A stretch of DNA of 39,022 nt. It comes from an uncultured Coriobacteriia bacterium. GTDB lineage: Bacteria; Actinomycetota; Coriobacteriia; Anaerosomatales; PALSA-660. The position numbers and the translations under genes were made by a program. Positions 1,413 to 28,103 of the stretch are shown one piece after another (within the stretch, counting starts at the first letter, position 1; each line of letters begins with the position of its first letter). The notes under the pieces were generated by a model. The model searched no databases, was not told the DNA's origin, and worked only from the letters and a program-made list of their open reading frames with translations. The DNA is taken from contig CAIKZH010000065.1 in assembly GCA_903831865.1 (NCBI GenBank), forward strand, positions 1 to 39,022, in the 5' to 3' direction.

Positions 1413-1455
1413 CGGCATCGACCATCCGAAGTCACGCATCTGATTGGGAGCGTCG

Positions 1456-2454: not shown

Positions 2455-3637
2455 TCCCTCCGTCGCCGCTCAAATCCCTCTGGCGGAGCCAGCGCTGGGT
2501 GGGAACGAGATCGACTACATGGTGGATGCAGTCTCATCGGGGTGGCTGTCGGCGGGTCCGTATGTGCGCCGTTTTGAGGATGCGGTAGCCGCTGCCACCG
2601 GGTCACGTAATGCGGTTGCGTGTGCAAGTGGAACAGCAGCGCTTCACGTCGCACTGCTTCTTGCCGGGGTTCGTCGCGCCGACCTGGTTGTCTGTCCCAC
2701 CCTGACCTTCATCGCCACAAGCAACGCGATCACGTACTGCGGCGCCGACCCGGTCTTTCTCGGATGCGATGACTCGCTCTGTCTTGATCCTGACGCGCTT
2801 GCTGGATTCCTCGAAGATGGCTGCGAGACGACCGACGTTGGCCTAGTGGAACTCTCCACCGGGAGGCGGGTGGCTGCCGTTGTGCCCGTCCATGTCCTAG
2901 GCACCCCGTGCTCGCCACGCGTGTTCGATGTCGCCGCCTCCTTTGGGCTGCGTGTTGTCGAGGACGCGGCCGAGGCGATCGGCTCGCGATGGGTGGGGGA
3001 GTCTCTCGGGGGGAGGGAAGTAGGCACAGCGGGGCTACTCGGAGTGCTGTCATTCAACGGCAATAAGCTGATCACAAGCGGTGGCGGTGGCATGATCCTG
3101 ACCGCCGACGACGACCTGGCGAAGCGTGCGCGCTATCTGGTCGACCAAGCCAAGGATGACGCGCTTCGCTACATCCACGGCGAGGTTGGCTTCAACTACA
3201 GGCTTGCGAATCCGCTGGCCGCACTTGGACTCGCCCAAGTAGAGCAGCTCGATCGCCTCGTTGCCGCGCGTCTGATCAACTTCGATCGGTATCGTGAGCG
3301 ACTACACGGAGGAAGGGGCATCCGGTTGCTCGAGCCGCCTCCGGAGGTGCGGTCGAACCATTGGTTCTACCCCCTGGTGGTCGACCCCCAGGAAGCGGGG
3401 ATCGATCGGGAGACACTGATGACCCGCCTACGGGAGCTCGGCATCCAGACGAGGCCTCTCTGGTATCCCAATCATCGACTGAAGCCCTACCTCGGTTCAC
3501 TCTCCTTCAATGTCGATCGGGCAGTCTGGTACTGGGAGCGCGTCCTTTGCCTCCCGTGCGGTGCTGCATTGTCCGCCGAGGAGATAGAACGTGTTTGCGA
3601 GGAGATCGCCAAGGCGCTTCCTGCCGTCTCAGCTTGA
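2447..3637 (+). CDS. legC: DegT/DnrJ/EryC1-type sugar aminotransferase, LegC-like
   Basis: A 396-residue PLP-dependent aminotransferase of the DegT/DnrJ/EryC1 (AHBA synthase) family. The Schiff-base lysine is K207 in SFNGNK-LITSGGGG, and the N-terminal region has the usual IPLAEPALGGNE and SSGWLSAGPYVRRFE stretches. The expected reaction is transfer of the glutamate amino group to C4 of the 4-keto sugar made by the preceding enzyme. The ATG at 2447 overlaps the LegB stop by 8 bases and has AGGGA upstream, so the two are probably translationally coupled. The SFNGNK-xITxGGGG variant is typical of LegC/PseC-like members. The substrate is inferred from context. Confidence 0.82.
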   Translation: MSDPSVAAQIPLAEPALGGNEIDYMVDAVSSGWLSAGPYVRRFEDAVAAATGSRNAVACASGTAALHVALLLAGVRRADLVVCPTLTFIATSNAITYCGADPVFLGCDDSLCLDPDALAGFLEDGCETTDVGLVELSTGRRVAAVVPVHVLGTPCSPRVFDVAASFGLRVVEDAAEAIGSRWVGESLGGREVGTAGLLGVLSFNGNKLITSGGGGMILTADDDLAKRARYLVDQAKDDALRYIHGEVGFNYRLANPLAALGLAQVEQLDRLVAARLINFDRYRERLHGGRGIRLLEPPPEVRSNHWFYPLVVDPQEAGIDRETLMTRLRELGIQTRPLWYPNHRLKPYLGSLSFNVDRAVWYWERVLCLPCGAALSAEEIERVCEEIAKALPAVSA

Positions 3638-4368: not shown

Positions 4369-6171
4369 ATGCCTACTCTTCGGTTCATGCGTCGGTTGCT
4401 GCGAGAGCAGCCGCTCAGGTTCTCGGCGGTTGTCGTTTCCGCTGCGCTCGCCGGGATCCTCGACGGGATTTGGATCGCCGCTCTGGTCCCACTCCTCGAC
4501 GTGTTGGGCGGCCAAGGCTCCGGTGGGACGATTGGTGCGGGAGTGCATGCAGTCCTCGGCGTCGTCGGGCTGCCCTTGAGTCTCTACAGCATCCTCGGGT
4601 TCGTTCTCTTCTTCGTTCTTTGTCAGGCGGTGGCTACTATTGCCCAGGCCAAGATCGCGTATGGTTCGATCTACGGTTTCGAGTCTGATCTACGCAATCG
4701 TCTCTACGATGCGGTGTTCAGCGCACGTTGGCCGTTCTTCGTGCGAGAGAAGAGCGCTGACGTCGTTAATGCGCTGACCGTCGAGGCGACACGAGCCTCA
4801 GAAGCTTACAACTACCTGAATCAACTCCTCGGCATTGTTCTTACGGTTGCGGCGTACGTGGTACTCGCGGTCTTTCTGTCCCTACAGATGACCGCGATTG
4901 TCCTGGTTGCGGGCGCGACGTTCGCGTTTGCCCTGCGACGGCGCGTTGCGCGGGGAAGTCAGTATGGGCTCGCGGTTACTCGCCTGAACCAGAATGTTCA
5001 GAGCGCCGCCATGGAGAGCATCTCAGGTGCGAAGCTCGTGAAAGGCGTCGCCGCCGAACGTTCGTCGGTCAGCAGGTTTGTCACAACAACCCTCAACCTC
5101 GCGCATCAGCAGTACAGCATGCAGATGAATCAAGCGTGGGTGAAGCTCATCTACGACTCGCTGTCGGCGTTCGTCGTTGTGATTGGAATCTGGCTCGCCT
5201 CAACGAGATTTCACATGGCGCTTCCGGAACTCATGGTCTTCTTGGTCGTCTTCGCACGGATCGCGCCGCGGATAAGCAACATCTCAACTCTTCAGCACAG
5301 TCTGCTCTCGTTCCTGCCATCGCTGGACAGAATCGACGACCTCACCGGTAGGGCGGCCCGAATGCTCGAGGGCGGGGGCACGGTCCGCCTTCCCCACTTC
5401 ATGGGCGCGATTGAGTTCCGTGGCGTCACGTTCGGGTACGACGCTGCCGCCCCCATCGTGCGAGACTTGGACCTCACGATCGCCGCGGGTCGAACGACGG
5501 CTGTCGTTGGCCCTTCCGGCGCCGGCAAGACAACAATCATCGATCTGGTCATGCGGCTGATTCTGCCTCAGGCGGGCGCTGCAGAGGTGGACGGCGTTCC
5601 CATGCGCGAACTCGACGTCCCCGACTGGCGCAGTCGCATCGGCTACGTCGCGCAGGACGCCGTGCTCTTCCACGCGACAGTGCGCGACAACATCGCTTTC
5701 GGTGCGCCCGACGCGACGGACTCGGACGTGCGAGACGCGGCTCGGCTTGCATTCGCCGACGAGTTCATCAGCGAGATGGAGTGCGGCTATGACACGATCG
5801 TGGGTGATCGAGGATTGCGACTCTCAGGCGGACAGCGCCAGCGAATCGCGCTTGCACGCGCAATCGTGCGACGCCCCGAGATCCTTATCTTGGATGAGGC
5901 CACGAGCGCTCTCGATGCCGAGTCGGAAGCCAAGATTCAGCAGGCCGTCGCCAAGCTCGCGCGGTCTCTTACCGTGATAATCGTTACTCACAGGCTTGCC
6001 ACGGTGAGGGATGCTGATCTCATCTACGTGCTAGAGGGCGGTCGCATCGTGGAGCAAGGCACCTTCGACCAGCTTGTGGTCGCTCACGGTCGCTTCGAGG
6101 AGTTGCGCAGGTTGCAGTCGCTTCAAGGCGAGACGCACCCGCAGGGGGAGCGAGAAGGGGGCAAGGCATGA
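4369..6171 (+). CDS. ABC transporter with fused membrane and ATPase domains, PglK/MsbA-like flippase
   Basis: A 600-residue half-transporter that would work as a homodimer. An N-terminal membrane domain of about six helices (roughly residues 15-310) is followed by an ATPase domain with Walker A GPSGAGKTT (about 381-389), signature LSGGQRQRIALARA (from 485), Walker B ILILDEATSALD and switch histidine in VTHRLA. In glycan loci this architecture is found in PglK/WlaB, which flips lipid-linked oligosaccharides across the membrane, and in MsbA-type lipid exporters. No Wzx-type flippase occurs in the window, so this is the best candidate for moving the undecaprenyl-linked glycan outward. ATG 4369 is chosen because it follows the regulator stop by one base. 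The longer frame upstream overlaps the regulator and lacks ABC homology. Confidence 0.85.
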   Translation: MPTLRFMRRLLREQPLRFSAVVVSAALAGILDGIWIAALVPLLDVLGGQGSGGTIGAGVHAVLGVVGLPLSLYSILGFVLFFVLCQAVATIAQAKIAYGSIYGFESDLRNRLYDAVFSARWPFFVREKSADVVNALTVEATRASEAYNYLNQLLGIVLTVAAYVVLAVFLSLQMTAIVLVAGATFAFALRRRVARGSQYGLAVTRLNQNVQSAAMESISGAKLVKGVAAERSSVSRFVTTTLNLAHQQYSMQMNQAWVKLIYDSLSAFVVVIGIWLASTRFHMALPELMVFLVVFARIAPRISNISTLQHSLLSFLPSLDRIDDLTGRAARMLEGGGTVRLPHFMGAIEFRGVTFGYDAAAPIVRDLDLTIAAGRTTAVVGPSGAGKTTIIDLVMRLILPQAGAAEVDGVPMRELDVPDWRSRIGYVAQDAVLFHATVRDNIAFGAPDATDSDVRDAARLAFADEFISEMECGYDTIVGDRGLRLSGGQRQRIALARAIVRRPEILILDEATSALDAESEAKIQQAVAKLARSLTVIIVTHRLATVRDADLIYVLEGGRIVEQGTFDQLVVAHGRFEELRRLQSLQGETHPQGEREGGKA

Positions 6172-7244
6172 AGGCAAGCCAGAACCGAGGCACGCGAAAT
6201 GCCCTTGTCACGCCTGACGCTCTAATCAGCGCAGCGTTGCGCCAGATGGACGAGTCTGGCGACAAGATTCTGATAGTTGTGGACAGTTCGCGACACCTCT
6301 TGGGCACAGCGACTGACGGCGACGTGCGTCGCTGGCTCATTGCGGGCAACGGGTTGGACCATCCGATAGCCGAGGCAATGAATCCCACTCCACTGAGCCT
6401 GTGCGTGGGCTACGACGTCGCCGAGGCCCGCCAGTTGCTACTGACGAACAAGATCGACTGTATCCCCGTGGTGGACGATGAGGGCGTGGTCGTCTCCGCA
6501 ATCTGGTGGGTGGATCTTCTTGAGCAACCCCAACCAACTCTCCGTCAGGTCGGCCTGCCCGTCGTGATCATGGCCGGCGGCGAGGGCACTCGGCTCGCGC
6601 CCTACACGAAGGTCCTGCCGAAGCCACTGATTCCGATTGGTGAGACACCCATCGTGGAACTCATCATCGAGCGCTTCGTGTCGCACGGATGTCGCGAGTT
6701 CTACCTATCGGTGAATTACAAGGCAAACCTGATCAAGGCGTACTTCGCAGATCTGGCGCCTGCCTACGACATTCAATTCGTGGAGGAAGAGCGGCCCCTG
6801 GGAACCGCGGGAAGCCTCTCGCTTCTGCGCGGGCGCATCACGGGGACCTTCTTCGTCAGCAACTGCGACATCCTCATCGATGCGGACTACGCGAATGTTC
6901 TCGACTTCCACCGCTCCCAGGGCAACTTGATTACGGTGGTCGCATCTGCGAAGAACTTCACAATCCCTTATGGCGTGTGCGAGGTTGCCGGCGGAGGTCA
7001 GCTAAAGGGCATCACCGAAAAGCCCGGATTCGACTTTCTGGTGTCGACCGGCATGTGCGTTCTTGAAGCCTCAGTGATTGATGAAGTTCCGAATGATTGC
7101 CTGTATCACATTCCTGATCTTGTCAATTCGTGCGTGGCGGATGGCAAGAGGGTCGGCATCTATCCTGTGTCGGAGAAGTGCTGGCTAGACATGGGCCAGT
7201 GGGAGGAGTTCAGCGAGATGCGTGCGAGGTTTGGATCGTCGTGA
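6168..7244 (+). CDS. ptmE: CBS-domain sugar-1-phosphate nucleotidyltransferase, PtmE-like
   Basis: A 358-residue protein with two CBS motifs (about residues 8-125, including VTPDALISAALRQMDES and TDGDVRRWL) joined to a nucleotidyltransferase domain. The latter starts MAGGEGTRLAPYTKVLPKPL at residue 135 and includes SNCDILIDADY. This CBS-plus-transferase order is that of Campylobacter PtmE, the glucosamine-1-phosphate guanylyltransferase that supplies GDP-GlcN for legionaminic acid. The CBS pair probably senses adenylate or the pathway product. It overlaps the ABC gene by four bases (ATGA). The nucleotide used cannot be read from the sequence, so GDP specificity is inferred from the family. 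Confidence 0.8.
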   Translation: MKASQNRGTRNALVTPDALISAALRQMDESGDKILIVVDSSRHLLGTATDGDVRRWLIAGNGLDHPIAEAMNPTPLSLCVGYDVAEARQLLLTNKIDCIPVVDDEGVVVSAIWWVDLLEQPQPTLRQVGLPVVIMAGGEGTRLAPYTKVLPKPLIPIGETPIVELIIERFVSHGCREFYLSVNYKANLIKAYFADLAPAYDIQFVEEERPLGTAGSLSLLRGRITGTFFVSNCDILIDADYANVLDFHRSQGNLITVVASAKNFTIPYGVCEVAGGGQLKGITEKPGFDFLVSTGMCVLEASVIDEVPNDCLYHIPDLVNSCVADGKRVGIYPVSEKCWLDMGQWEEFSEMRARFGSS

Positions 7245-7434
7245 GGGGGCGCGTGGAACGGATCGGACTGATTGTTGGGGAAGGCACTGCGCAGCCGTCC
7301 TCGACGCTGCGCGGATGACCAAGTGGTTTGACCAAGTGGACGTTGTCGACGTGGCCGAGAATCTCGGCACTCAGGTCCCGATGGGCCAGGTCAATGAACT
7401 CGAGCGCATGAGTGACAACATGGGGGTGCTCCAA
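7245..7434 (+). other. 190-base gap with vestigial coding character
   Basis: No intact gene fits here. The forward frame from 7241 encodes VERIGLIVGEGTAQPSSTL before a stop at about 7318. The frame used by the next gene continues with FDQVDVVDVAENLGTQVPMG up to the chosen LegI start. Together they read like one broken protein joined by a frameshift near 7310. I cannot name the ancestral gene. In Campylobacter ptmF follows ptmE, so a decayed relative is possible but unproven. Confidence 0.35.
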
Positions 7435-8463
7435 ATGTCGGTGCCCGTGCCTTGGAAAGAGGGACACGTCTACCTCATCGCGGAAGCAGGCGTGAACCAC
7501 AACGGTTCGCTATCGCTTGCACACGAGATGATCGATTGCGCTGCGGAAGCTGGGGTGGACGCGGTCAAGTTCCAGATCGGTACGCCGGAGGCGGTGGTCT
7601 CCCGGTTCGCGCCAAAGGCCCAGTACCAGAAACAGACAACCGACGCATCTGAATCCCAACTGGAGATGATACGCAACCTCCAGCTGCCGCCTGACGCGTG
7701 GCCTGACCTGGTGTCCCGCTGCGTGCAAGAGTGTGTGGCGTTCCTCGCGTCGCCCTTTGATCTGCCGAGCGTGCGCTATCTCTCCGGCCTCGACACACCG
7801 GCGATCAAGGTCCCGTCGGGAGAGATTACCAATCTGCCGTATCTGCGCGCGGTCGGCGCCACCGGCATGCCCGTGTTGCTCTCGACGGGCATGTGCGATC
7901 TCGAGGAGGTGCGCTGCGCAATCGGCGTTCTCGCGAGCAATGGGACCCCTCGCGACGCTATCCTCGTGCTTCAGTGCACGACCGAGTACCCCGCACCCGT
8001 CGAGGACGCGAATCTGCGGGCTATGCAGACGATGGCCGTCGAGTTCGGCCTGCCCGTGGGTTACTCGGACCACACCCTCGGGCTCGAACTCTCGTTCGCG
8101 GCGGCAGGCATGGGCGCGCGAGCGATTGAGAAGCACTTCACGCTGGACAAGACAATGGAGGGCCCGGACCACGCCGCCAGTCTTGAGCCAAACGAGCTGA
8201 ACGAGCTCGTGCGGGCCATACGCTCGATCGAAGTCGCACTGGGCGACGGTGTCAAGAGGCCTGCCCGATCGGAGATCAAGAACCAGCCGATCGCTCGAAA
8301 GAGCATCGTGGCATCTCGGGCGATAGTAGCGGGGGAGGCGTTCTCGGAGGAGAACCTGACCACCAAGCGCCCGGGAAGCGGCGTCAGCCCCATGAGCTGG
8401 GACGAGGTCGTCGGCACTTGTGCGACGCGTGCTTTCGAACCGGATGAGCTGATCGAGCTATGA
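7435..8463 (+). CDS. legI: N-acetylneuraminate/legionaminate synthase, NeuB family
   Basis: This 342-residue protein has the NeuB fold: a TIM barrel with AEAGVNHNG (residues 16-24) and DAVKFQIGTPEAVVS, LCDLEEV-type and LQCTTEYPAP loops, GYSDHTLG, and EKHFTLDKTMEGPDH. A C-terminal SAF (antifreeze-like) domain follows from about residue 285 (ARKSIVASRAI, TTKRPGSG). It condenses phosphoenolpyruvate with a six-carbon 2,4-diacylamino-trideoxy-mannose-type sugar to give the nine-carbon acid. ATG 7435 is preferred because family members start about 10-12 residues before the first strand and GGGGGTG lies six bases upstream. Upstream starts (7408, 7381, 7222) would add non-homologous residues. Leg rather than Neu or Pse specificity is inferred from the neighbours. 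Confidence 0.85.
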   Translation: MSVPVPWKEGHVYLIAEAGVNHNGSLSLAHEMIDCAAEAGVDAVKFQIGTPEAVVSRFAPKAQYQKQTTDASESQLEMIRNLQLPPDAWPDLVSRCVQECVAFLASPFDLPSVRYLSGLDTPAIKVPSGEITNLPYLRAVGATGMPVLLSTGMCDLEEVRCAIGVLASNGTPRDAILVLQCTTEYPAPVEDANLRAMQTMAVEFGLPVGYSDHTLGLELSFAAAGMGARAIEKHFTLDKTMEGPDHAASLEPNELNELVRAIRSIEVALGDGVKRPARSEIKNQPIARKSIVASRAIVAGEAFSEENLTTKRPGSGVSPMSWDEVVGTCATRAFEPDELIEL

Positions 8464-9641
8464 CGCGCGTTTGTGTTGTCACAGGAGGTCGCGCGGACTA
8501 CGGACTCCTGCGTCCGGTCATGCGACGCATCGCGGCATCGGACGTGCTCCACCTCGCGGTTGCGGCCACTGGCGGCCACCTGTCGGCGAGGTTCGGCATG
8601 ACGGTGCGCGAGATCGAGGCGGACGGCTTCGTGGTTGACATCGCCGTGCCGATCCTTGGCGATGGTGATGATGACGTTGCGGCAGCGCATGCGGCGGCTG
8701 CGGCAACAGGAGGATTCGCAGACGCGTGGTCACGGAACCGGCCGGACGTAGTCCTCTTGCTGGGCGACCGCTATGAGATTCTCGCAGCCGCCACGGTGGC
8801 GCTCCTTCTGCGGATACCAGTCGCGCACATCGCGGGTGGCGAGGTGACCAAGGCTGCATTCGACGACCAGATCCGGCACGCCATCACGAAGATGGCGAGT
8901 CTGCATTTCGTGAGTGCCCAGACGTACCGTCGACGCGTCATCCAGATGGGCGAGCGCCCGGACCGCGTGTTCCTCGTAGGCGCGCTGGGTCTGGACAATG
9001 TGCTCGGGCTCGATCTGTTCGACCGCTCGGAAGTCGAGAAGCGTCTCGGCATCGGACGTGGATTGAAGTACGCGGTTGTCACGTTCCATCCGGTCACGCT
9101 TTCGCCCGAGACCACTCGCGTCGGGATCTCCGCGGTCCTCGAAGCGTTGAGCTCGCGGTCGGAGCTGTTCGCAGTCTTCACGATGCCGAACGCAGATCCC
9201 GACAGTCGGGTCGTCGAGAAACGGATTCGGGCGTTCGAGCAAGCGCGCCCAGGTTGTTGCAGCGTGCACGAGGCGCTTGGGGTGCAGCTCTACCTTTCGG
9301 CTGTGAAACACGCGAGCGTCGTGATCGGCAATTCGTCGAGCGGGATGGCTGAGGCTCCTGCGCTCGGGACGCCAGTCGTAAACGTGGGTGACCGGCAGCA
9401 AGGCCGGCTGCGCCCGTCGGGCGTTATCGACTGCGAGCCGACCCCTGAGGCCGTGGAGGCGGCCATCGACCGCGGTCTCTCCTCGGAGTTCGCTGAGGAG
9501 TTCGCGGCGGGTAGCGCCATGCTGGGCGATGGCCACGCTGCCGAACGCATCGTCGAGGTTCTGGAACGGACTGCGCCCGATTCGCTCGAGCTCGCCAAAG
9601 GATTCAGAGACCTTCCTGACGTCGACACCGGCGACGGGTAG
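8460..9641 (+). CDS. legG: UDP/GDP-sugar 2-epimerase (hydrolysing), NeuC/LegG-like
   Basis: A 393-residue GT-B fold epimerase. The start TGGRADYGLLRPVM, the RPDVVLLLGDRYEILAAA strand, the HIAGGEVT loop and the C-terminal VIGNSSSGMAEAPALGTPVV nucleotide-binding segment are diagnostic for the hydrolysing 2-epimerases NeuC, LegG and NnaA. In legionaminate synthesis LegG releases the nucleotide and inverts C2, giving the substrate of the synthase. It overlaps that synthase's stop by four bases (ATGA), so the two are almost certainly co-translated. The nucleotide carrier (UDP or GDP) is not visible. Confidence 0.85.
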   Translation: MTRVCVVTGGRADYGLLRPVMRRIAASDVLHLAVAATGGHLSARFGMTVREIEADGFVVDIAVPILGDGDDDVAAAHAAAAATGGFADAWSRNRPDVVLLLGDRYEILAAATVALLLRIPVAHIAGGEVTKAAFDDQIRHAITKMASLHFVSAQTYRRRVIQMGERPDRVFLVGALGLDNVLGLDLFDRSEVEKRLGIGRGLKYAVVTFHPVTLSPETTRVGISAVLEALSSRSELFAVFTMPNADPDSRVVEKRIRAFEQARPGCCSVHEALGVQLYLSAVKHASVVIGNSSSGMAEAPALGTPVVNVGDRQQGRLRPSGVIDCEPTPEAVEAAIDRGLSSEFAEEFAAGSAMLGDGHAAERIVEVLERTAPDSLELAKGFRDLPDVDTGDG

Positions 9642-9737: not shown

Positions 9738-9983
9738 ATGACTGATTCCGAGAAGCTGGACGCCGCGTTCAGGGACGCGCTCAGCCTCGACGACGACCTC
9801 AATCTCGCCCACGCTGCCTACGGCGTGACGCGTGGTTGGGACTCGACCGCCCACATGCAACTTGTGGCCGAGATCGAGGACGCTTTTGACATCATGCTCG
9901 ACACCGATGACGTGATCGGCATGAGCAGCTACCTAGTCGCGAAGGACATCTTGCGGAAGTACCATGTCGGCCTCGACGATTAG
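9738..9983 (+). CDS. Acyl carrier protein
   Basis: An 81-residue acidic four-helix carrier. The phosphopantetheine attachment serine is S36 in GWDSTAHM, with EIEDAFDI and a DDVIGMSSY helix following as in ACPs. GAAAGGGG lies 10-17 bases before the ATG. It is not the housekeeping ACP by context: no fatty-acid synthase genes are near. Instead it is followed by a ligase, a LuxE-like and a LuxC-like enzyme and its own phosphopantetheinyl transferase. It probably carries a small carboxylic acid for modifying the nonulosonate or another sugar of the glycan. Confidence 0.85.
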   Translation: MTDSEKLDAAFRDALSLDDDLNLAHAAYGVTRGWDSTAHMQLVAEIEDAFDIMLDTDDVIGMSSYLVAKDILRKYHVGLDD

Positions 9984-10079
9984 CGGCGCAGTCGCCTCCA
10001 TGGCAGGTTCGGGCTGCCGAATAGCGACTTGCGCTTTGCTGGAGAGTGCGTTTGCAGGCGTCAGAGGAGCCGTGTCGAC

Positions 10080-11507
10080 ATGACGGTTCTGGGGCTTGAG
10101 GACTTCGACGGACCTGCGCTCATCGACTCCGTGTCGGGGCTCAGGCTCTCCCGAAGCGAGCTCGTCGACGAGGCGTTGTCCTTTGTGTCGCCGATAGGCG
10201 TTGCTAGGTCGCTCGTCCTTCTCTTGTGCGACATGAGCCCTTTCACGCCTGTCTTCTACGCCGGTGCGCTCCTTGCCGACCATCCGGTCGCACTTGTCGA
10301 CGCGAGGGCCCCTGCCGTCGCGACGGCAAGCACACTCGCCGCCTACGGGCCGGAATGGGTCGCGGGTCCCGTAGGCACCGCGAACACGCTGGCCGAGGCC
10401 GGCATCGAAGGCGCAGTCGCAAGGACGAGTCTCGGCGGCGAGCTCGTCCGCCTGGCCGTCGAGCGGCGCGCGCCCCTCCATCCAGAGCTCGCGCTGCTGC
10501 TCGCCACATCGGGCACGACGGGCTCGACCAAGTTCGTGCGGCTGACACGGGCGAACGTGGAATCCAACGCGAGGGCGATTGCCGAATACCTCTCGCTGAC
10601 GCCTGACGAACGTCCGATCGGCTCTCTCCCTCTGCACTATTCTTTCGGCCTATCGGTGCTCAACAGCCACTGGTCGGCAGGCGCTCCACTCGTGCTCACG
10701 CCAGCGAGCGTCTTGCAGCGGGCCTTTTGGGGCGTCATGGAGACGCATGAGTGCACAAGCCTTGCAGGCGTGCCCTTCACCTACGAGATGCTCGAACGCG
10801 TCGGATTCCGAGAGATGGAGCTGCCGGCGCTTCACACACTCCAGCAGGCCGGCGGGGCACTCGACATCGGCCTCGCAAAGGCGTTTGGTGAGCACATGGC
10901 GGCGCGCGGAGGCCGGTTCTTCGTCATGTACGGCCAGACCGAGGCGACTGCGCGTATCGCCTACGTCCCGCCAGACAGACTCGCCGACAAGCCTGGCTCA
11001 GCCGGCATCGCCGTGCCGGGAGGTCGGCTCGGGGTCGATCCCGGCCGAACGACCAGCGACGACGGGCGCTCAGTCGGGGAAGTCATCTACTCAGGGCCGA
11101 ACGTCATGATGGGCTATGCGAGCACCGCCGCCGACTTGGCGCTTGGCGACAAGCTCGGCGGCGTCCTGCGCACTGGAGACATCGGTTATCTCGACGACGA
11201 GTCCTTCCTCTTCCTCGTCGGACGCAGTAAGCGCATTGCGAAGGTGTTTGGGTTGCGTGTGAACCTCGACGAGGTCGAGAGACGTCTGCGAGCAGACGGT
11301 CCGGTTGCGGTCGTCGGCGCCGGCGAGTCAATCTGGGCGTTCATCGGCTTCGGCGACGTCGAGAAGGCCAAGCAGATCCGGCAGGTGCTTGCGCAGGAGT
11401 ATCGGGTGCACAAGAGCGCACTCCACGTCGAAGTCGTCGACCAGATTCCAACGACGAGTTCAGGCAAGACCGACTACGAACAGGTGCAGACGTGGATACC
11501 CAGCTAG
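10080..11507 (+). CDS. AMP-forming acyl-CoA/acyl-ACP synthetase
   Basis: A 475-residue ANL-superfamily enzyme. Motifs in order are the phosphate loop ATSGTTGSTK (residues 142-151), YGQTEATAR (from 284), TGDIGYLDDESFLFLVGRSK (from about 366) and the C-terminal catalytic lysine K463 in TTSSGKTDY. It should activate a carboxylic acid as an acyl-adenylate and load it on a pantetheine thiol, most simply the ACP encoded immediately upstream. The ATG at 10080 has AGGAG upstream; the in-frame GTG about 50 bases earlier would only add a basic, unrelated stretch. The substrate acid is unknown. Amino-acid-activating relatives also exist in flagellin-glycan loci. Confidence 0.8.
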   Translation: MTVLGLEDFDGPALIDSVSGLRLSRSELVDEALSFVSPIGVARSLVLLLCDMSPFTPVFYAGALLADHPVALVDARAPAVATASTLAAYGPEWVAGPVGTANTLAEAGIEGAVARTSLGGELVRLAVERRAPLHPELALLLATSGTTGSTKFVRLTRANVESNARAIAEYLSLTPDERPIGSLPLHYSFGLSVLNSHWSAGAPLVLTPASVLQRAFWGVMETHECTSLAGVPFTYEMLERVGFREMELPALHTLQQAGGALDIGLAKAFGEHMAARGGRFFVMYGQTEATARIAYVPPDRLADKPGSAGIAVPGGRLGVDPGRTTSDDGRSVGEVIYSGPNVMMGYASTAADLALGDKLGGVLRTGDIGYLDDESFLFLVGRSKRIAKVFGLRVNLDEVERRLRADGPVAVVGAGESIWAFIGFGDVEKAKQIRQVLAQEYRVHKSALHVEVVDQIPTTSSGKTDYEQVQTWIPS

Positions 11508-12556
11508 CCCATCTCCTGGAGGCGGCACAGTACTCCGTGCCCGTGGCGGCCAAGGAGCCACTCATGCTCGAGGGGCTGAACGATCTCTCGCGCCACCACT
11601 ACGAGTGCTCCATCGAGTATCGGCGGATCGTCGACACGGTGTTCGACGGTAGGGTGGAAGCGGCGCGGTTGGGTGACGTGCCATACGTTCCCGTGCGGCT
11701 CTTCAAACTTCTCGAGCTCAAGTCGATCGCGGACGAAGAGGTCTTCAAGTTGATGACATCGAGCGGCACGACGGGGCAACAACCCAGTCGCATCTACCTG
11801 GACGTTGCGGGCGCTCGGATCCAGACCCAAGCGCTGTCGAGCATCGTGACGCACTACATCGGCAAGCGCCGGTTGCCCATGCTTATCGTCGACCATCCCG
11901 GAGTCGTCAAGGACCGCGCGCAGTTCAGCGCCCGTGGCGCCGGTATTCTCGGTATGCTGAGCTACGGTCGAGATCACCTTTACGTTCTGCGCCAGGACAT
12001 GACAGTCGATCGCGCGGCCCTCAGCACGTGGCTAACGGAACATGCTGGACAAGACCTCTTGATCTTCGGGTTCACGTTCATGGTCTGGCAGTACCTGTTT
12101 GAGCCATTCAAAGCGAGCGCAATCGACTTGAGCAAGGCGACCCTGGTGCACAGCGGCGGCTGGAAGAAGCTCACCGACCTAGCCATCACGAACGAGGCAT
12201 TCAAGACCCATCTCCACGATGCGTTCGGTATTACCCGCGTGCACAACTTCTACGGGATGGTCGAGCAGGTCGGCAGCGTATTCTTCGAGTGCGACGCCGG
12301 CTACTTCCACCCCCCGAACTTCGCAGATGTCATCATTCGTGACCTTCTGAGCTGGGGCGTCGCCGAAGTCGGACAAGAAGGGGTCGTCGAGACCTTGAGC
12401 CTTCTGCCGAAGAGCTATCCCGGTCACTCACTGATGACCGAAGACCTGGGCGTTGTCCATGGAGTAGACGACTGCCCGTGTGGAAGAATGGGCAATCGTT
12501 TCACAATCGTGGGGCGCATCCCGAAGGCCGAGATCCGTGGGTGCAGCGACGCATGA
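11492..12556 (+). CDS. LuxE-like acyl-protein synthetase
   Basis: A 354-residue protein of the LuxE (acyl-protein synthetase) family. It has the P-loop TSSGTTGQQPS (about 88-98), a central VHSGGWKK segment, a VHNFYGMVEQVGSVFFEC stretch, and the family C-terminus DDCPCGRMG then GRIPKAEIRGCSDA. In luminous bacteria LuxE activates fatty acid as acyl-AMP, holds it on a cysteine near its C-terminus and hands it to LuxC; C351 in RGCSDA is the candidate acceptor here. The gene overlaps the ligase by 16 bases and the LuxC-like gene by four (ATGA), so the trio is one translational unit. There are no luxAB genes, so this is not bioluminescence. The acyl group is unknown. Confidence 0.8.
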   Translation: MDTQLAHLLEAAQYSVPVAAKEPLMLEGLNDLSRHHYECSIEYRRIVDTVFDGRVEAARLGDVPYVPVRLFKLLELKSIADEEVFKLMTSSGTTGQQPSRIYLDVAGARIQTQALSSIVTHYIGKRRLPMLIVDHPGVVKDRAQFSARGAGILGMLSYGRDHLYVLRQDMTVDRAALSTWLTEHAGQDLLIFGFTFMVWQYLFEPFKASAIDLSKATLVHSGGWKKLTDLAITNEAFKTHLHDAFGITRVHNFYGMVEQVGSVFFECDAGYFHPPNFADVIIRDLLSWGVAEVGQEGVVETLSLLPKSYPGHSLMTEDLGVVHGVDDCPCGRMGNRFTIVGRIPKAEIRGCSDA

Positions 12557-13806
12557 ACGACCGAGCTGACATGAACGCGGTAGTGCGGTCGGCGGTTTCC
12601 GACGTCACGTGGTCCGCCGACGAGATCGTGCGACGGCTGCGTGACGTCGGCGCTGCCAACGCGCCCTTCGCCGGTGAACTCATCGCGTTCTCGTCGGCGC
12701 TCTCGCGTCAGCTGCTTGGGGTACCGGGGGCGGACCCGCAAGTCGTAGCGCTCGGCTACTGGCTGCGCAAGGCGTCTGTCGAACGTCTCCGACGAGCCTT
12801 CGCCGAGCACGGCGACGAACGCACCGTCCTCGTGCCTCGTGGAATTGTCTTCAGCGTTACGCCCGCCAACGTTGACACGATGTTCGTCTACAGTTGGATT
12901 CTCGCGTTGCTGACAGGCAATGCGAACATCGTGCGGCTGTCCGAGAGGGGCGGCGGCGCGACGCTTCCGATTCTATCGGCGATATCGAGTGTGTTCTCCG
13001 ATGACCGCTTCGCCGAGATCAAGCGCCGGAACCTGCTCGTGTACACGGGCCATGACGACGAGGTCTCGCGCGTGTTGTCGGCCGCGTGCGACGTTCGGGT
13101 GGTGTGGGGCGGCGATGCGACGGTCAACCATTTTCGCCAGTTCCCGCTCGCCCCGCACGGTCGCGATATCACCTTCCCGGATCGTCACTCGTTCTCGATT
13201 CTCAGCTGTGAGGCGGTCGCACGCGCATCCGACGAGGATGTCGACACGCTGGCTGACCGCTTCTATAGTGACGCGTTCTGGTTCGACCAGGCCGCCTGCT
13301 CGTCCCCACGGTTGATCATCTGGCATCGCGCTTCCTCGGCGGACGCGAGCGCTGCGCGTGAGCGGTTTAGGGCGGCTGTGCAAGCCGCTGTCGACCGGCG
13401 CGGGTACGTTGCCGAGATTGGCTCGGCCGTCGACAAGATGGTGCTCGGGTTCGAGCGGGTGGCGTTGGGAACGGCGAGTCGCTATGAGCGCTCATCCAAC
13501 GAACTTACCTGGATCGAAGCGCCCGACCTTGCCGGGTACTCTCGTGACCATTGCGGTGGCGGTCTGTTCACTGAGTACGTGAGCGATGATCTCGATTCGG
13601 ACCTTCTCTCCTTCGTCTCGCAGCGCGATCAGACCGCTGCGTGCTACGGTCTCGACGCGTCGACGGTCGGGCGTCTCGCCCGGACGCTCAACGGCCGGGG
13701 TGTGGACCGCTGGGTCGAGATCGGGAGGGCGCTCCGATTCTCCTCGACGTGGGACGGCTACGACCTGCTGCAGGAGTTCGTGAAGAGGGTAGTGGTCGAT
13801 GTCTGA
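12553..13806 (+). CDS. LuxC-like acyl-CoA/acyl-protein reductase
   Basis: A 417-residue member of the LuxC acyl reductase branch of the aldehyde dehydrogenase superfamily. Visible landmarks are RGIVFSVTPANVDTMF and NANIVRLSER (nucleotide-binding half), GGDATVNHFRQFPL, the nucleophilic cysteine C249 in DQAACSSPR, and a C-terminal ALRFSSTWDGYDLLQEFV. LuxC takes an acyl group from LuxE onto its cysteine and reduces it to the aldehyde with NADPH. The start ATG 12553 overlaps the LuxE-like stop (ATGA). A GTG 75 bases upstream would read through the LuxE C-terminus and is rejected. The product is presumably an aldehyde made from an ACP- or protein-bound acid and used in glycan modification. Confidence 0.8.
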   Translation: MNDRADMNAVVRSAVSDVTWSADEIVRRLRDVGAANAPFAGELIAFSSALSRQLLGVPGADPQVVALGYWLRKASVERLRRAFAEHGDERTVLVPRGIVFSVTPANVDTMFVYSWILALLTGNANIVRLSERGGGATLPILSAISSVFSDDRFAEIKRRNLLVYTGHDDEVSRVLSAACDVRVVWGGDATVNHFRQFPLAPHGRDITFPDRHSFSILSCEAVARASDEDVDTLADRFYSDAFWFDQAACSSPRLIIWHRASSADASAARERFRAAVQAAVDRRGYVAEIGSAVDKMVLGFERVALGTASRYERSSNELTWIEAPDLAGYSRDHCGGGLFTEYVSDDLDSDLLSFVSQRDQTAACYGLDASTVGRLARTLNGRGVDRWVEIGRALRFSSTWDGYDLLQEFVKRVVVDV

Positions 13807-14230
13807 ACGGCACGAAGGGCACGACCGCTCGGCAGGCCTGCAGCCGTTAGCGGGCGTCGAGTTCAACGTCGGCATCGACATGGAGTCGCACGAACGGTTC
13901 GAGCACCTTGGCGAGTCGCGGGGCGCTACGCTGCGGTACGTGTTCGACAGCCCAGAGATTGACTACTGCGAGCGGTTCGAGAATGCCGCCGAGCGGTTTG
14001 CGGGCACGTGGTGCGCGAAGGAGGCTGTCGTCAAAGCGGCTTGGCCGTGGGTGCATCTCGAGCCGCGCCGCGTCACCATCGGGCACTCCGAGGACGGCGC
14101 TCCGCATGCTTCAATAGTCGATTGGGATGCCGACGCGGTGGGTTTGACCATCCGCGTGAGCGTATCCCACACGGATGGTCAGGCGATTGCCGCCGCAATC
14201 GTCTGGGGCCCGACAGGCGGAGCCGAGTGA
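13799..14230 (+). CDS. Holo-ACP synthase-like 4'-phosphopantetheinyl transferase
   Basis: 143 residues of the AcpS type. The first motif is VGIDMESHERF with the metal-binding D27, and the second is WCAKEAVVKAAW (W71-K78) with the metal-binding E75. Typical AcpS is about 125 residues; this one has roughly 20 extra N-terminal residues. It would transfer phosphopantetheine from CoA to S36 of the ACP encoded 3.8 kb upstream. It overlaps the reductase gene by eight bases, which makes it part of the carrier-protein module and suggests this ACP is served by a dedicated transferase rather than the chromosomal AcpS. Confidence 0.75.
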   Translation: MSERHEGHDRSAGLQPLAGVEFNVGIDMESHERFEHLGESRGATLRYVFDSPEIDYCERFENAAERFAGTWCAKEAVVKAAWPWVHLEPRRVTIGHSEDGAPHASIVDWDADAVGLTIRVSVSHTDGQAIAAAIVWGPTGGAE

Positions 14231-14297: not shown

Positions 14298-14939
14298 GTG
14301 ACAACTCCCATCGTGATTCTCGGGGCTGGGGGCTTCGCACGCGAGGTCGCCGAGCTCATCCACGATCTCGGTCCCCATTGTGGATTCGAACTGCTGGGCT
14401 TCATCGATCGCGACGATTCGCGAGCCGGCGAGGTACAGAACGGCGTCGAGATTCTCGGCACGATCGAGCGCGTCAGCGGGGTTGAGGGATTGACGGCTGT
14501 CCCCGGGTCGGGCGAATTGAGAATCAGGAAGCGCCAACTCGCCGAGATCGCCGCAGCAGGGCTTGCGTCGCCATCTCTGGTGCACCCATCGGTGATCATG
14601 TCTCGCAGCGTCGAGCTTGGCCCTGGATGCATCGTATGCAGTGGAGCAGTGGTCTCCACGAACGTGACCATAGGCGCCAACGTGCTCGTGAACTGCATGA
14701 GCGCCATAGGGCACGATGTGACGATCGGCGACAATGTCGTGGTCTCGTCCGGCTCGCGAATCTCGGGAGGGTGCCAGATCGGCGACGAGGCGTTCCTAGG
14801 CACGAGTGCAGTGTTGCTTCCGCTCGTGAAGGTGGGAGCTGGCGCGACCATCGCCGCGGGGGCCGTGGCCACGCGTGATGTGAACGACGGAGAGTCGGTG
14901 TTTGGCGTGCCGGCTCGTGTGATGCGCCGCGGTGCCTGA
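14298..14939 (+). CDS. NeuD/PglD-family sugar acyltransferase
   Basis: 213 residues: an N-terminal Rossmann-like domain (ILGAGGFAREVAELI, residues 6-20) and a C-terminal left-handed beta-helix of hexapeptide repeats (about 95-205) with the likely catalytic H139 in GHDVTIG. Homologues N-acetylate UDP-4-amino sugars (PglD) or O-acetylate sialic acid (NeuD). Here it is the best candidate for the LegH step, acylating the 4-amino group made by the LegC-like enzyme. Given the ACP module immediately upstream, it may use an acyl-ACP or an unusual acyl group instead of acetyl-CoA. GTG 14298 is preceded by GGAGG, a strong start signal. Confidence 0.8.
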   Translation: MTTPIVILGAGGFAREVAELIHDLGPHCGFELLGFIDRDDSRAGEVQNGVEILGTIERVSGVEGLTAVPGSGELRIRKRQLAEIAAAGLASPSLVHPSVIMSRSVELGPGCIVCSGAVVSTNVTIGANVLVNCMSAIGHDVTIGDNVVVSSGSRISGGCQIGDEAFLGTSAVLLPLVKVGAGATIAAGAVATRDVNDGESVFGVPARVMRRGA

Positions 14940-14981
14940 CCCACGGCCGATTGCCCGCGACTTCGTAAGGAAGGTGTGTCG

Positions 14982-15704
14982 GTGTACCAAGGCAGGCGCA
15001 CGCTTGTGCTGATACCCGCTCGTGGCGGCTCGAAGGGGCTGCCGAGAAAGAACGTTCTCGACTTGGCCGGGAAGCCGCTCATCGCGTGGACGATCCAACA
15101 GGGGCTTGCGAGCGCTCACGTCGACGACGTCGTGGTATCGACTGATGATCGCGAGACCGCCGAGATTGCAGTGGCGTGGGGGGCCGAGGTCCCGTTTATG
15201 CGCCCTCAGGAACTGGCGGTCGACACGTCGCCGTCGATCGATGCTGTACTCCACGCTCTCGATACGCTGGCAGCTCAGGGGCGTTCCTGGGACTACCTGG
15301 TGCTTCTCGAGCCCACGAGCCCCCTGCGCACGAGCGGTGACGTCGATCGAGCCATTGAGCTTCTTTGGGCCAACGAGGCGACCGCGGACGCGGTCGTCAG
15401 TGTGGGCGAGGTGCACTTGGAGCACCCGTCGATCGTGAAGCGCATCGTGGACGGACGCCTTGAGCCGTACGTCCGTGAAGACACTCGGGCCATCCGCCGC
15501 CAAGACCTTGACACGGCGTACTTCCCATTCGGAGTGGTGTATCTCTCGAAAGTGAGTTCGCTGCGCCAAACGAAGAGCTTCTATCCTAAACGCACTGTGC
15601 CCATCATGATTGAACGATGGCAGGACTACGAGATCGACGACATCTATGACTTCGTGTGCGTCGGCGCGATCCTTGACTACCGACAGAAGGAGAAGACCAC
15701 GTGA
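14982..15704 (+). CDS. legF: CMP-nonulosonate cytidylyltransferase, LegF/NeuA-like
   Basis: 240 residues with the CMP-sugar synthetase opening LIPARGGSKGLPRKN (residues 10-24), DDVVVSTDD, LLEPTSPLR and RQDLDTAYFPFGVVYL. It activates the nonulosonic acid with CTP, giving the CMP-linked donor for a transferase. The GTG at 14982 is preferred over GTG 14976 because AAGGAAGG ends seven bases before it. It is followed by a GTGA overlap with the oxidoreductase gene. Relatives include CMP-Neu5Ac, CMP-Leg and CMP-Pse synthetases; the neighbouring LegB/C/G/I set argues for a legionaminate-type sugar. Confidence 0.83.
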   Translation: MYQGRRTLVLIPARGGSKGLPRKNVLDLAGKPLIAWTIQQGLASAHVDDVVVSTDDRETAEIAVAWGAEVPFMRPQELAVDTSPSIDAVLHALDTLAAQGRSWDYLVLLEPTSPLRTSGDVDRAIELLWANEATADAVVSVGEVHLEHPSIVKRIVDGRLEPYVREDTRAIRRQDLDTAYFPFGVVYLSKVSSLRQTKSFYPKRTVPIMIERWQDYEIDDIYDFVCVGAILDYRQKEKTT

Positions 15705-16705
15705 AGCTGCTTCAAGTCGGCCTCGGATCTATGGGCAAGCGCCGTCTGCGTAACATGGCCGCGCTCGGTGAGAAGGACGTCGTCGCCTTCGACCTGAGCG
15801 CAGAACGCCGCTCCTTCGCCGAGAGGGAATACGGCGTCCGAACGGTTGGCGAACTGACGCCCGAGCTCATCGCGGAGCGCGAAGCGTTCATCATCTCAAC
15901 GCCGCCGGACCACCATCTTCCGTATATCAAGCTAGCGGTCGAGAATCGCAAGGCCGCGTTCGTGGAGGCGAGCGTGATCTCAGACGGGCTGGCCGAGCTG
16001 GACGCGGCCGCACGCAAGGCGCGAATCGTCATCGCGCCGTCATGCACCATGCGTTTCCACCCCGCCGTGAACGCGATGCGTGAGGTCGTGACCTCGGGTC
16101 TGTACGGGAAGGTGACAACGTTCGACTACTACCTCGGCCAGTATCTGCCTGACTGGCACCCGTGGGAGGACATCAGCACCTTCTACGTGGGCAAGCGGGA
16201 AACGTCCGGCAGTCGCGAGATGGTGCCGTTCGAGCTGACGTGGATCGTTGATCTCGTCGGCTGGCCGAAGGAGGCGGTCGGCCTTATGGGGTCCACGATG
16301 GACCTGGGCGTTGACATCGACGACACCTATGGCATCGCGCTTCGCGGTGACAAGTGGATCGGCACGGTAACGGTCGACGTCGTCGCGCGCTATGCGCTTC
16401 GGCAGTTCGTTCTGAACCTCGAGGGGGCTCAGATCCAGTGGCGTTGGGACGAGGCGTTCGTGCGCCTCTACGACGCCGAGACCAAGGAGTGGACGCACGT
16501 CGACAACCCCAAGCTCGCCGCCGCGGCGGAGGGCTACAACGAGAACATCACAGAACAGATCTACATCGATGAGATGGATGCGTTCCGCGAGGCGGTTGCA
16601 GGGACCGCGCCATTTCCGAACACACTCGCCGACGACATCGCCATTCTCGGCATCCTCGAGGCTGTCGAGGGCACGAATCGCGGCGCAGCAGTAGGCAGGA
16701 GCTAA
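15701..16705 (+). CDS. Gfo/Idh/MocA-family NAD(P)-dependent oxidoreductase
   Basis: 334 residues. The N-terminal Rossmann domain has LLQVGLGSMGKRRLRNM, then FIISTPPDHHLPYI and AAFVEASVI, where the usual EKP lysine motif is replaced. The C-terminal beta-sheet domain includes MRFHPAVNAMREVV. Members oxidise or reduce sugar hydroxyls or ketones. The common EKP-type motif reads E-A-S here, so the normal lysine is absent; this also occurs in some nucleotide-sugar and nonulosonate-cluster members, but it makes a simple dehydrogenase assignment uncertain. It overlaps legF (GTGA) and is followed four bases later by the class III aminotransferase. The pair may oxidise and then aminate one sugar position. 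Confidence 0.75.
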   Translation: MKLLQVGLGSMGKRRLRNMAALGEKDVVAFDLSAERRSFAEREYGVRTVGELTPELIAEREAFIISTPPDHHLPYIKLAVENRKAAFVEASVISDGLAELDAAARKARIVIAPSCTMRFHPAVNAMREVVTSGLYGKVTTFDYYLGQYLPDWHPWEDISTFYVGKRETSGSREMVPFELTWIVDLVGWPKEAVGLMGSTMDLGVDIDDTYGIALRGDKWIGTVTVDVVARYALRQFVLNLEGAQIQWRWDEAFVRLYDAETKEWTHVDNPKLAAAAEGYNENITEQIYIDEMDAFREAVAGTAPFPNTLADDIAILGILEAVEGTNRGAAVGRS

Positions 16706-19485: not shown

Positions 19486-20253
19486 ATGATTCAAGCTTGG
19501 GCACAGCACGCCGCGCACTTCAGCACACGACACGTCGTTGTCACGGGCGCCAATGGTGGTATTGGCCAGGCAGTTGCGCAGGCGTTCGCCAGCGTGGGGG
19601 CAAGCGTTATCGGAGTCGACAGGACACTGGCAGAGGCCGAACAGTCGGTCGCGTGTTTGCCCACCGCAGCTCCTGGGGTCGTCCATGCCTACATAGAGAT
19701 GGACTTCTCCGATGCGTCTTCCATCGCGACGGGTCTGGGTCAGATTCGCTCCGCCTCGCGCGAGATCGTGGCTCTCGTCAACGTGGCTGGCATTGCGCAG
19801 GACGCGCTCGTCCACATGGTGACTGCGGAGTCGCTCCGCCGTCACATGCAGATCAACTTTGAAGCGCACGTGCAGATCACTCAGTACGTGACGAGAATGA
19901 TGCTGCGCACGGGTGGCGGCTCGGTGGTCAATGTCTCGAGCGTCACGGCGATTGATGGGAACCCCGGGCAGCTCGCCTACGCGTCGTCGAAGGGGGCGAT
20001 GCTGTCAGCGACGCGGACCCTGTCGATGGAGCTTGCTCCGAAAGGCATACGAGTCAACGCGGTCGCGCCGGGCGTCATCGACACCGAGATGAGCAGGAAG
20101 GTTGACGACGCATCCAGAGCCCGCTTGCTCGAGCGCGTCGCTATGGGAAGGATTGGCCAGCCCGACGAGGTCGCCCAGGTCATCCTCTGGCTGTGCTCTC
20201 CGGCATCCTCGTATGTGACCGGCCAGACTGTGAGGATAGACGGGTGCATGTGA
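19486..20253 (+). CDS. FabG-like short-chain dehydrogenase/reductase
   Basis: 255 residues of the classical SDR family: cofactor motif TGANGGIG (20-27), NVAG, the catalytic serine in [10 protein letters not shown], and Y165-x3-K169. C-terminal [19 protein letters not shown] and VRIDGCM follow as in 3-oxoacyl reductases. The preceding AGAGGG gives a good ribosome-binding site for ATG 19486. The next gene is a paralogous SDR that overlaps it by four bases. Campylobacter PtmA in the legionaminate locus is also an SDR of this size, so a sugar precursor is possible. Acting with the transketolase pair on a ketol product is the alternative. The substrate cannot be read from the sequence. Confidence 0.8.
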
Positions 20254-21008
20254 CGCGAAGTCGCATCCTCGAGGGTCAGAAGATCCTCGTCACCGGCGCA
20301 AACCGCGGAATCGGCTGGGCCACGTGCCGGGTCCTCGCCGCGAATGGGGCCGAGGTCGCTGCCGCGTCTCGTCGCAAAAGCGAAGAGTTCTCGGCACGTC
20401 TTCAGGCCCTCGCCGAGGAGTGCGAAGTGGCTGTCTACGAGGTGCGCCTGGACCTAACCGACGCCGATTCCATCAAGGCGGTCCTTTCGGCGATCCGCAA
20501 GGGCGACACGCCATTGTCCGGACTGGTGAACAACGCTGGTGTCACCTATAACGCGCTGTTCCAGATGTCCGAGGTAGCCGCCATGCGGGACGTCTTCGAA
20601 GCCAACTTCTTCGGTCTGGCGCTCCTCACTCAAGGATGCTCGCGGCTGATGGCTCGCGGGCAGAGCGGTAGCATCGTGAACATCGCATCGACGGCGGCCA
20701 TCGATGGGAATCCCGGCCGGTCGGTCTACGGCGCCTCGAAAGCCGCGGTCATAACGCTGACGAAGGCTTGCGCAAGGGAACTCGGGCTTCTCGGCATTCG
20801 GGTCAACGCTGTAGCGCCAGGTTTGACCGACACTGAGATGCTGTCAAGCATGACCGACGACGTGATCGCCGATGCCGAAGAGCACACTGACCTCGGCCGC
20901 CGAGGGCAACCCAGCGAGATCGCCGAGGCGGTCTGTTTCCTGCTGTCGCCGCTCGCCTCGTACGTCAGCGGCCAAGTTCTCCGAGTTGACGGGGGGATGC
21001 GCACGTGA
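20250..21008 (+). CDS. Second FabG-like short-chain dehydrogenase/reductase
   Basis: 252 residues, clearly related to the gene before it: TGANRGIG (15-22), [15 protein letters not shown]160-x3-K164 and [10 protein letters not shown]. Both proteins share an unusual AIDGNPG segment just before the active-site tyrosine, which suggests they arose by duplication and act on similar substrates. GTG 20250 is chosen because it overlaps the previous stop (GTGA), the coupling style used throughout the window; GTG 20244 is the alternative. Its own stop overlaps the transketolase N-subunit start in the same way. Confidence 0.8.
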
Positions 21009-26175: not shown

Positions 26176-26215
26176 GATGGGCTTCGGTCCGCAGCCGAAC
26201 GGAGAGAGGCTCCGC

Positions 26216-28071: not shown

Positions 28072-28103
28072 CCGCGGGGCGCACACGAGCGGAGGTTGCT
28101 GAG

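Follow-up and report, generated by a model that had tools for sequence, protein, structure and literature searches.

A LuxE/LuxC carrier-protein cassette in a bacterial legionaminate-type locus as a probable source of hydroxy-acids for sugar N-acylation

Why an operon for a legionaminate-type sugar should contain relatives of the luminescence proteins LuxE and LuxC together with a carrier protein of its own is the question raised by a 39,022-nucleotide stretch of DNA (the window) from an uncultured Coriobacteriia bacterium (assembly GCA_903831865.1, contig CAIKZH010000065.1). The five genes named in the original prediction were confirmed on the plus strand at 9738-14230. They encode an 81-residue acyl carrier protein (ACP; 9738..9983) with the phosphopantetheine site WDS36xxHM; an AMP-forming acyl ligase of 475 residues counted from the ATG (10080..11507; PF00501 AMP-binding, E 3.9e-34), the proposed ACP-loading enzyme; a LuxE-like acyl-protein synthetase of 354 residues with a C-terminal RGC351SDA (11492..12556; PF04443, E 2.7e-47); a 417-residue LuxC-like acyl-thioester reductase with the catalytic C249 (12553..13806; PF05893, E 1.2e-29); and an AcpS-type phosphopantetheinyl transferase of 143 residues (13799..14230; PF01648, E 8.8e-15). 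Overlaps of 16, 4 and 8 bases join the last four genes. The catalytic residues had been assigned correctly and are conserved among the aligned members of the cassette families: S36 of ACP in 77/77, C351 of LuxE in 84/84 and C249 of LuxC in 79/79. The ligase retains K463 in 80 of 80 members, along with conserved TSGTTG and YGxTE motifs, and all five cassette copies of AcpS keep D27 and E75; the assembly contains a second AcpS copy on another contig (C76). The window ACP alone matches PF00550 marginally (E 0.018), but 12 of the 19 aligned ACP family members match it, and the ACP family profile matches solved ACPs with a best E of 2.3e-08. The corresponding profiles of LuxE and LuxC match the solved proteins 7xc6_E (E 2.7e-25) and 7xc6_A (E 1.1e-11).

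The surroundings of the core are those of a legionaminate-type pathway, with NeuC/LegG on the 5' side and NeuD followed by a CMP-sugar synthetase on the 3' side, as previously described. Upstream, likewise on the plus strand, lie the 4,6-dehydratase LegB (1444..2454; TIGR04180, 485.1 bits, cut-off 475), a LegC-like DegT aminotransferase that makes the 4-amino acceptor (2447..3637; TIGR04181, 396 bits, just below the cut-off of 420), a PtmE-like protein combining CBS and sugar-1-phosphate nucleotidyltransferase domains (6168..7244), a NeuB/LegI-type synthase (ORF 7222..8463, conserved domain from about 7468; TIGR03569, 448 bits, cut-off 399.65) and the hydrolysing 2-epimerase NeuC/LegG (8460..9641; TIGR03568, 422 bits, cut-off 235.9). 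Thus LegB and the NeuB- and NeuC-type proteins exceed curated cut-offs (485/475, 448/400 and 422/236 bits). Downstream on the same strand follow a NeuD/PglD-family N-acyltransferase in the LegH position, the proposed acceptor-side enzyme (14298..14939; TIGR03570, 187 bits, cut-off 160.8), a CMP-nonulosonate synthetase of the LegF/NeuA/PseF type (14976..15704; PF02348, E 9.5e-25; TIGR03584, 148 bits, under the cut-off) and a Gfo/Idh/MocA-type oxidoreductase (15701..16705; PF01408, E 2.8e-05); a class-III aminotransferase (16710-18032) belongs to the same operon. The set from LegB to the CMP-synthetase resembles the CMP-legionaminate pathway of the Campylobacter/Legionella type, except that the acyl donor proposed here is a hydroxyacyl-ACP rather than acetyl-CoA. 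Among 69 genomes of the same order no other good LuxE homolog was found, so the cassette was probably acquired by the host and a role in the core metabolism of the order is rejected. One member of the same family has a Leg cluster without the cassette, a point in favour of the acyl-donor reading given below. Viral contigs yielded no copy, and viral carriage was dismissed. The assembly, which is 96% complete, contains no detectable flagellin (PF00669), and a flagellin glycan in this host was rejected on this ground.

The unit had been taken to end at 14230, and this has to be corrected. Some 5 kb further downstream, in the same co-directional run as the ACP, ligase, LuxE and LuxC genes, lie four overlooked plus-strand genes at 19486-22836: a FabG-like SDR, the putative aldehyde or keto reductase (19486..20253; 42% identity to the SDR in the cassette at locus L171), a second, transketolase-linked FabG-like SDR (20193..21008, start probably near 20253; 47% identical to the SDR preceding the transketolase genes of L171), and the N-terminal (TKN; 21005..21844; 44% identity to L171 TKN) and C-terminal (TKC; 21841..22836; 45% identity to L171 TKC) subunits of a transketolase. 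This two-subunit, split enzyme conserves the TPP-binding motif (GDGE...N in TKN) and the catalytic Glu, and its TKC matches the solved split transketolase 6yaj with E 6e-69. The order SDR-SDR-TKN-TKC is also found within a cassette elsewhere, and the four best TKN homologs among 395 genomes each lie 2.4-11.6 kb from LuxE; judged by this gene order and homology, the four genes belong to the cassette and complete it. In L066, L082, L108, L116, L163 and L171 the SDR directly before TKN is closer to the second SDR of the window than to the first. The distance of about 5 kb between the two parts was counted against the acyl-donor reading given below.

The core of ACP, SDR, ligase, LuxE and LuxC recurs in hundreds of glycan loci of many phyla, for which no product has been assigned. 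In a sample of 84 such loci the neighbours of LuxE include the ligase in 82, LuxC in 81, ACP in 73 and an SDR in 70. The proposed linkage of LuxE/LuxC genes with the NeuB family was recovered: within 2.5 kb, NeuB occurs in 24 of the 84 loci and an acyltransferase in 44, and 21 of the 24 NeuB-bearing loci also have the acyltransferase. A nonulosonate-specific module is nevertheless not supported, since NeuB accompanies only about 29% of the loci and many of the remainder are glycan loci of other types. In several pse clusters of Bacillales a PseH-like GNAT lies inside the cassette, between SDR and ACP. The adjacency of PseH or NeuD is partly expected, because pse and leg clusters need these genes anyway. 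Gene content, intact active sites and the recurrent cassette with its neighbours are thereby directly established. The window LuxE is about 47-56% identical to the LuxE proteins of the cassettes retained for comparison and groups in a quick tree with actinobacterial, acidobacterial and Deinococcus members. A DNA search for E. coli copies with a Rheinheimera cassette as the query gave no match.

Nor is the module novel. Its gene set is known, with unexplained function, from pse-linked flagellin glycosylation islands, as orf1-orf3-luxE-luxC in Aeromonas Group II and as ACP/FabG/CaiC/LuxE/LuxC in Enterobacteriaceae (PMC7874193, PMC4875605), and it mirrors rfbKLMN of Vibrio cholerae O1. There, RfbKLMN(O), encoded by VC0248-VC0252 and including RfbL, an iron-containing alcohol dehydrogenase (VC0250), the LuxE/LuxC protein RfbN and an acetyltransferase, are proposed to form the 3-deoxy-L-glycero-tetronate (2,4-dihydroxybutyrate) that is N-linked to perosamine (PMC3441752, PMC9201469). 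Both systems combine an ACP, an AMP ligase of about 471 residues in V. cholerae, a presumed alcohol-forming dehydrogenase, LuxE plus LuxC and an acetyltransferase-type enzyme in an amino-sugar glycan locus; they differ in that the window has an SDR in place of VC0250 and separate LuxE and LuxC genes in place of the combined RfbN, and in V. cholerae the acceptor is perosamine and no transketolase is known. The use of an alcohol dehydrogenase there and of an SDR here fits the prediction of an aldehyde-to-alcohol step. Rfb-type sets were recognised by gene order, length and families, and one set with the order ACP-ligase-Fe-ADH-LuxE::LuxC adjoins each of two legionaminate clusters. The RfbN-like fusions of these loci (L159/L160) form a long branch apart from the window LuxE in a quick tree; if they are true relatives, RfbN would represent a distant LuxE clade. 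The RfbKLMN route to tetronate is itself a proposed pathway, which was counted against a reading built on it. Beside nonulosonate genes, the flagellin-island sets and the window share an ACP, a FabG-type SDR, an AMP ligase and the LuxE/LuxC pair; these nonulosonate genes are pse in the islands but legionaminate-type here, in a genome without detected flagellin, and the window further differs in having its own AcpS, a split transketolase and SDRs placed about 5 kb beyond the core on its 3' side. The sfm genes of Shewanella oneidensis were discarded as a parallel, as LuxE/LuxC are not mentioned for them, and papers on the flagellin islands of Geobacillus and Clostridium do not mention the LuxE set.

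With a probability of roughly two in three, the cassette is a dedicated acyl-donor system that builds a small hydroxy-acid and attaches it to a legionaminate-type sugar. We infer the reaction sequence, the acid used, the acceptor for the transketolase and the position acylated as follows. LuxE would activate a small acid, probably a di- or hydroxy-carboxylic acid, with ATP and pass the acyl group from its C-terminal Cys to LuxC, where reduction by NAD(P)H would yield an aldehyde. In the transketolase variant this aldehyde would be the likely acceptor of a two-carbon ketol unit. A (poly)hydroxy-acid may then arise when the FabG-like SDRs reduce the aldehyde or the ketone. The AMP ligase would load this acid onto the ACP, primed at Ser36 by the cassette's own AcpS, and the NeuD/PglD-type enzyme would N-acylate the 4-amino group introduced by LegC, the later N7 once NeuC and NeuB have acted. 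NeuD-type acylation is favoured because the nearest solved relatives of this NeuD are the 4-amino-sugar N-acetyltransferases PglB, VioB and PerB. Of the fates originally suggested for a small, activated and ACP-carried acid, N-acylation of the sugar is the one best supported, by the recurrent linkage to NeuB and an N-acyltransferase. It also fits the unexplained units of 376.14 and 102 Da reported for the flagellin of Aeromonas piscicola: Pse5Ac7Ac with one acetyl exchanged for C4H6O3 has a computed mass of 376.148, a fit of formula that isomers such as O-methyl-glyceroyl satisfy equally. No mutant in a cassette gene with mass-spectrometric data was found in the literature, and the links to V. 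cholerae tetronate and to the Aeromonas units provide a directly testable function in place of the 'liposugar' guess.

For the transketolase variant, which is rare and of which no description was found in the searchable literature, we tentatively consider a new acyl-donor branch in which LuxE/LuxC would reduce the acid to an aldehyde, the dedicated split transketolase would extend this by a two-carbon ketol unit, the second SDR would reduce the extended product, and the acyl group would finally pass from the ACP to the nonulosonate. If this is true, carbon extension by transketolase would be coupled to glycan N-acylation and the N-acyl group would be polyhydroxylated; starting from malate, a 3-deoxyhexonyl group (+162 Da) would result. 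A further class of transketolase-extended, acylated sialic-acid-like sugars is predicted.

That the cassette instead produces a long-chain fatty product (aldehyde or acyl group), the 'liposugar' suggested for the Aeromonas and Enterobacteriaceae islands (PMC7874193, PMC4875605), would agree with its homology to the luminous LuxC/LuxE pair, a synthetase/reductase with conserved Cys residues (solved complex 7xc6), and to fatty-acid ligases, yet it is unlikely. Both LuxE and LuxC fall far short of the NCBIfam cut-offs for the long-chain equivalogs (59/550 and 30/750 bits), the window LuxE falls into a clade separate from the luminous proteins in the quick tree, no LuxD-like gene is seen in the operon, and the 376- and 102-Da units of cassette-bearing Aeromonas are too small to leave room for a long chain. 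The absence of luxAB noted originally extends to the whole assembly, where PF00296 finds no luciferase-family protein, a further point against the long-chain reading; bioluminescence is rejected on this ground together with the clade and the low equivalog scores.

LuxC is a member of the aldehyde-dehydrogenase-like superfamily, which speaks for a LuxC working backwards: an aldehyde made by transketolase or SDR would be oxidised to a thioester held on an enzyme or on the ACP, with LuxE serving as the acyl transfer partner. The recurrence in the cassette of transketolase genes, whose products make and use aldehydes, points the same way. Arguing against this quite improbable scheme are the SSGTTG nucleotide motif, which nearly all LuxE family members retain and which indicates ATP-driven activation of an acid, the lack of a transketolase in most of the 84 sampled cassettes, and the separate ligase that already accounts for ACP loading.

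The aldehyde of the original prediction is less likely an end product than an intermediate towards the hydroxy-acid. Its direct use on the glycan, for example by conversion to an amino-acyl or amino-alkyl group through the class-III aminotransferase that shares the operon with the Gfo/Idh oxidoreductase, is very improbable: such an aminotransferase occurs in one of the 84 loci, which places it outside the conserved cassette and led to its rejection as a core part.

Gene calls and Pfam matches bear out both the positions and the identities of the five genes (9738-14230, plus strand) which, according to the original prediction, form an acyl-activation and reduction module within a nonulosonate operon. 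They are located in positions 1-39022 of contig C65 (CAIKZH010000065.1), a stretch of 65% G+C from an assembly of 2.16 Mb in 192 contigs. The ACP is divergent and on its own falls under the Pfam cut-off; the profile of its family matches solved ACPs. S36 of the ACP, C351 of LuxE, C249 of LuxC, K463 of the ligase, and D27 and E75 of AcpS are intact and are invariant across the family of ACP-SDR-ligase-LuxE-LuxC cassettes. The presence of a second AcpS on another contig of the assembly (C76) suggests that the AcpS of the window is a dedicated copy. Genes for LegB, a LegC-like aminotransferase, a MarR-type regulator, an ABC exporter, a CBS-nucleotidyltransferase, NeuB and NeuC lie 5' of the core genes. 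NeuD, a CMP-sugar synthetase, a Gfo/Idh oxidoreductase, a class-III aminotransferase, an unassigned protein, two FabG-like SDRs and a split transketolase are encoded 3' of them.

A LuxE profile search of GTDB genomes revealed at least 581 relatives, of which 80 from many phyla were kept; a few further relatives came from plasmids. Of 84 loci compared, including the window, 65 had the full cassette nearby. NeuB was encoded within 2.5 kb in 24 of the 84 loci, and an acyltransferase of the GNAT, NeuD or hexapeptide type within the same distance in 44. The expected co-occurrence with NeuB-family genes was thus observed, yet the cassette serves glycan modification in general and is not restricted to nonulosonate loci. 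In several Bacillales pse clusters a PseH-like GNAT is placed between SDR and ACP, and AcpS belongs to the cassette in actinobacterial and Deinococcus copies.

Other LuxE-type gene sets were also encountered. On a Priestia plasmid (L039, 8690-14622), a LuxE of another type is accompanied by a fatty-acyl-AMP ligase, a phosphopantetheine-binding protein, an FAD oxidoreductase, an iron-sulfur scaffold protein and a cysteine desulfurase. A LuxE-type protein is followed by a protein of about 800 residues with a LuxC-like part in L169 (987-4551) and on a Salmonella plasmid (L038, 11941-16818), where the latter protein is annotated as AMP-binding and precedes a PaaK-like ligase. L167 (9049-12563) and L168 (9198-12505) contain a LuxE-LuxC pair of a separate clade, followed by an ABC ATPase gene and then, at a greater distance, by one for an SDR.

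The module itself is widespread and already described, and in this respect ordinary. What sets it apart is its product, which is proposed and not proven, together with the tetronate link and the transketolase form described below. The same gene set occurs adjoining pse genes in Aeromonas Group II flagellin islands (PMC7874193) and in Enterobacteriaceae (PMC4875605), and a 'liposugar' was proposed in both papers. The perosamine of Vibrio cholerae O1 is acylated with 3-deoxy-L-glycero-tetronate, and the link of RfbN, the combined LuxE/LuxC protein of the proposed tetronate pathway, to LuxE is cited in PMC4772473. Among 395 genomes from the order of one Shewanella cassette bearer, 60 yielded a hit to the LuxE family; in some of these the hit was just a weak one, to another ligase. 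In two of the 395, a run of ACP, ligase (473 residues), iron-containing alcohol dehydrogenase (Fe-ADH) and LuxE::LuxC fusion (825 residues) lies beside NeuB, NeuD and nucleotidyltransferase genes. These two Rfb-type sets adjoin the legionaminate genes of L159 (26-14036) and L160 (3-11115), so that some gammaproteobacteria may make legionaminates of the tetronate type. Two LuxE clades, each with a different alcohol dehydrogenase, are therefore at work in loci of one sort, as a route from acid via aldehyde to alcohol predicts. In the literature searched, the link between nonulosonates and tetronate-type N-acylation had apparently not been drawn.

The increment of a dihydroxybutyryl group is C4H6O3 (102.03 Da, computed); when the group takes the place of one acetyl of Pse5Ac7Ac, the computed mass is 376.148. 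Aeromonas piscicola AH-3, whose island contains the five cassette genes, synthesizes a 376.14-Da Pse derivative and an unknown 102-Da unit. Dihydroxybutyryl matches these masses, which is a fit and not proof, as O-methyl-glyceroyl shares the formula. The flagellin glycans of Plesiomonas are 316 and 358 Da, reported in a paper that does not mention LuxE.

A split transketolase (subunits TKN and TKC) adjoins the cassette in L037, L066, L082, L108, L116, L163, L164 and L171, a form for which the literature searched held no description. In L171, NeuD and a methyltransferase are followed by ACP-SDR-SDR-TKN-TKC-ligase-LuxE-LuxC. The SDR-SDR-TKN-TKC genes of the window (19486-22836) have the same order and are 42, 47, 44 and 45% identical to those of L171. 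When the window TKN was compared with the 395 genomes, the best four of 75 matches (G560, G706, G582, G828) all had a LuxE gene at a distance of 2.4-11.6 kb, and G596 and G776 had one within 15 kb; a rough estimate puts the number of such coincidences expected from chance alone below one. Based on the gene order and this proximity, the four window genes very probably belong to the cassette, at a site downstream of its core. The transketolase would lengthen an aldehyde acceptor by two carbons, followed by reduction.

The window LuxE has no well-scoring relative in 69 genomes of the host order, and G043, from the same family as the host, possesses LegB-LegC-NTase-NeuB-NeuC and lacks the cassette, which thus seems to have been added to a legionaminate backbone. 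The assembly encodes no luciferase-family protein, which rules out light as the product, and no flagellin, so a flagellin glycan is unlikely in this host.

The class-III (GSA-aminomutase-like) aminotransferase (16710-18032) adjoins the Gfo/Idh oxidoreductase in the nonulosonate operon and has a relative only in L069 among the sampled cassette loci. Between it and the SDR/transketolase genes lies a 409-residue protein (18029-19258) that matches nothing in Pfam or NCBIfam and could be a glycosyltransferase using the CMP-sugar. Further downstream, a run of genes (25943-30434) appears to encode a sugar-1-phosphate nucleotidyltransferase, a CDP-glucose-dehydratase-like protein, a dTDP-sugar-isomerase-like protein (28068-28550) and two NAD-epimerases. 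The same glycan locus may therefore contain a second pathway, for a deoxysugar.
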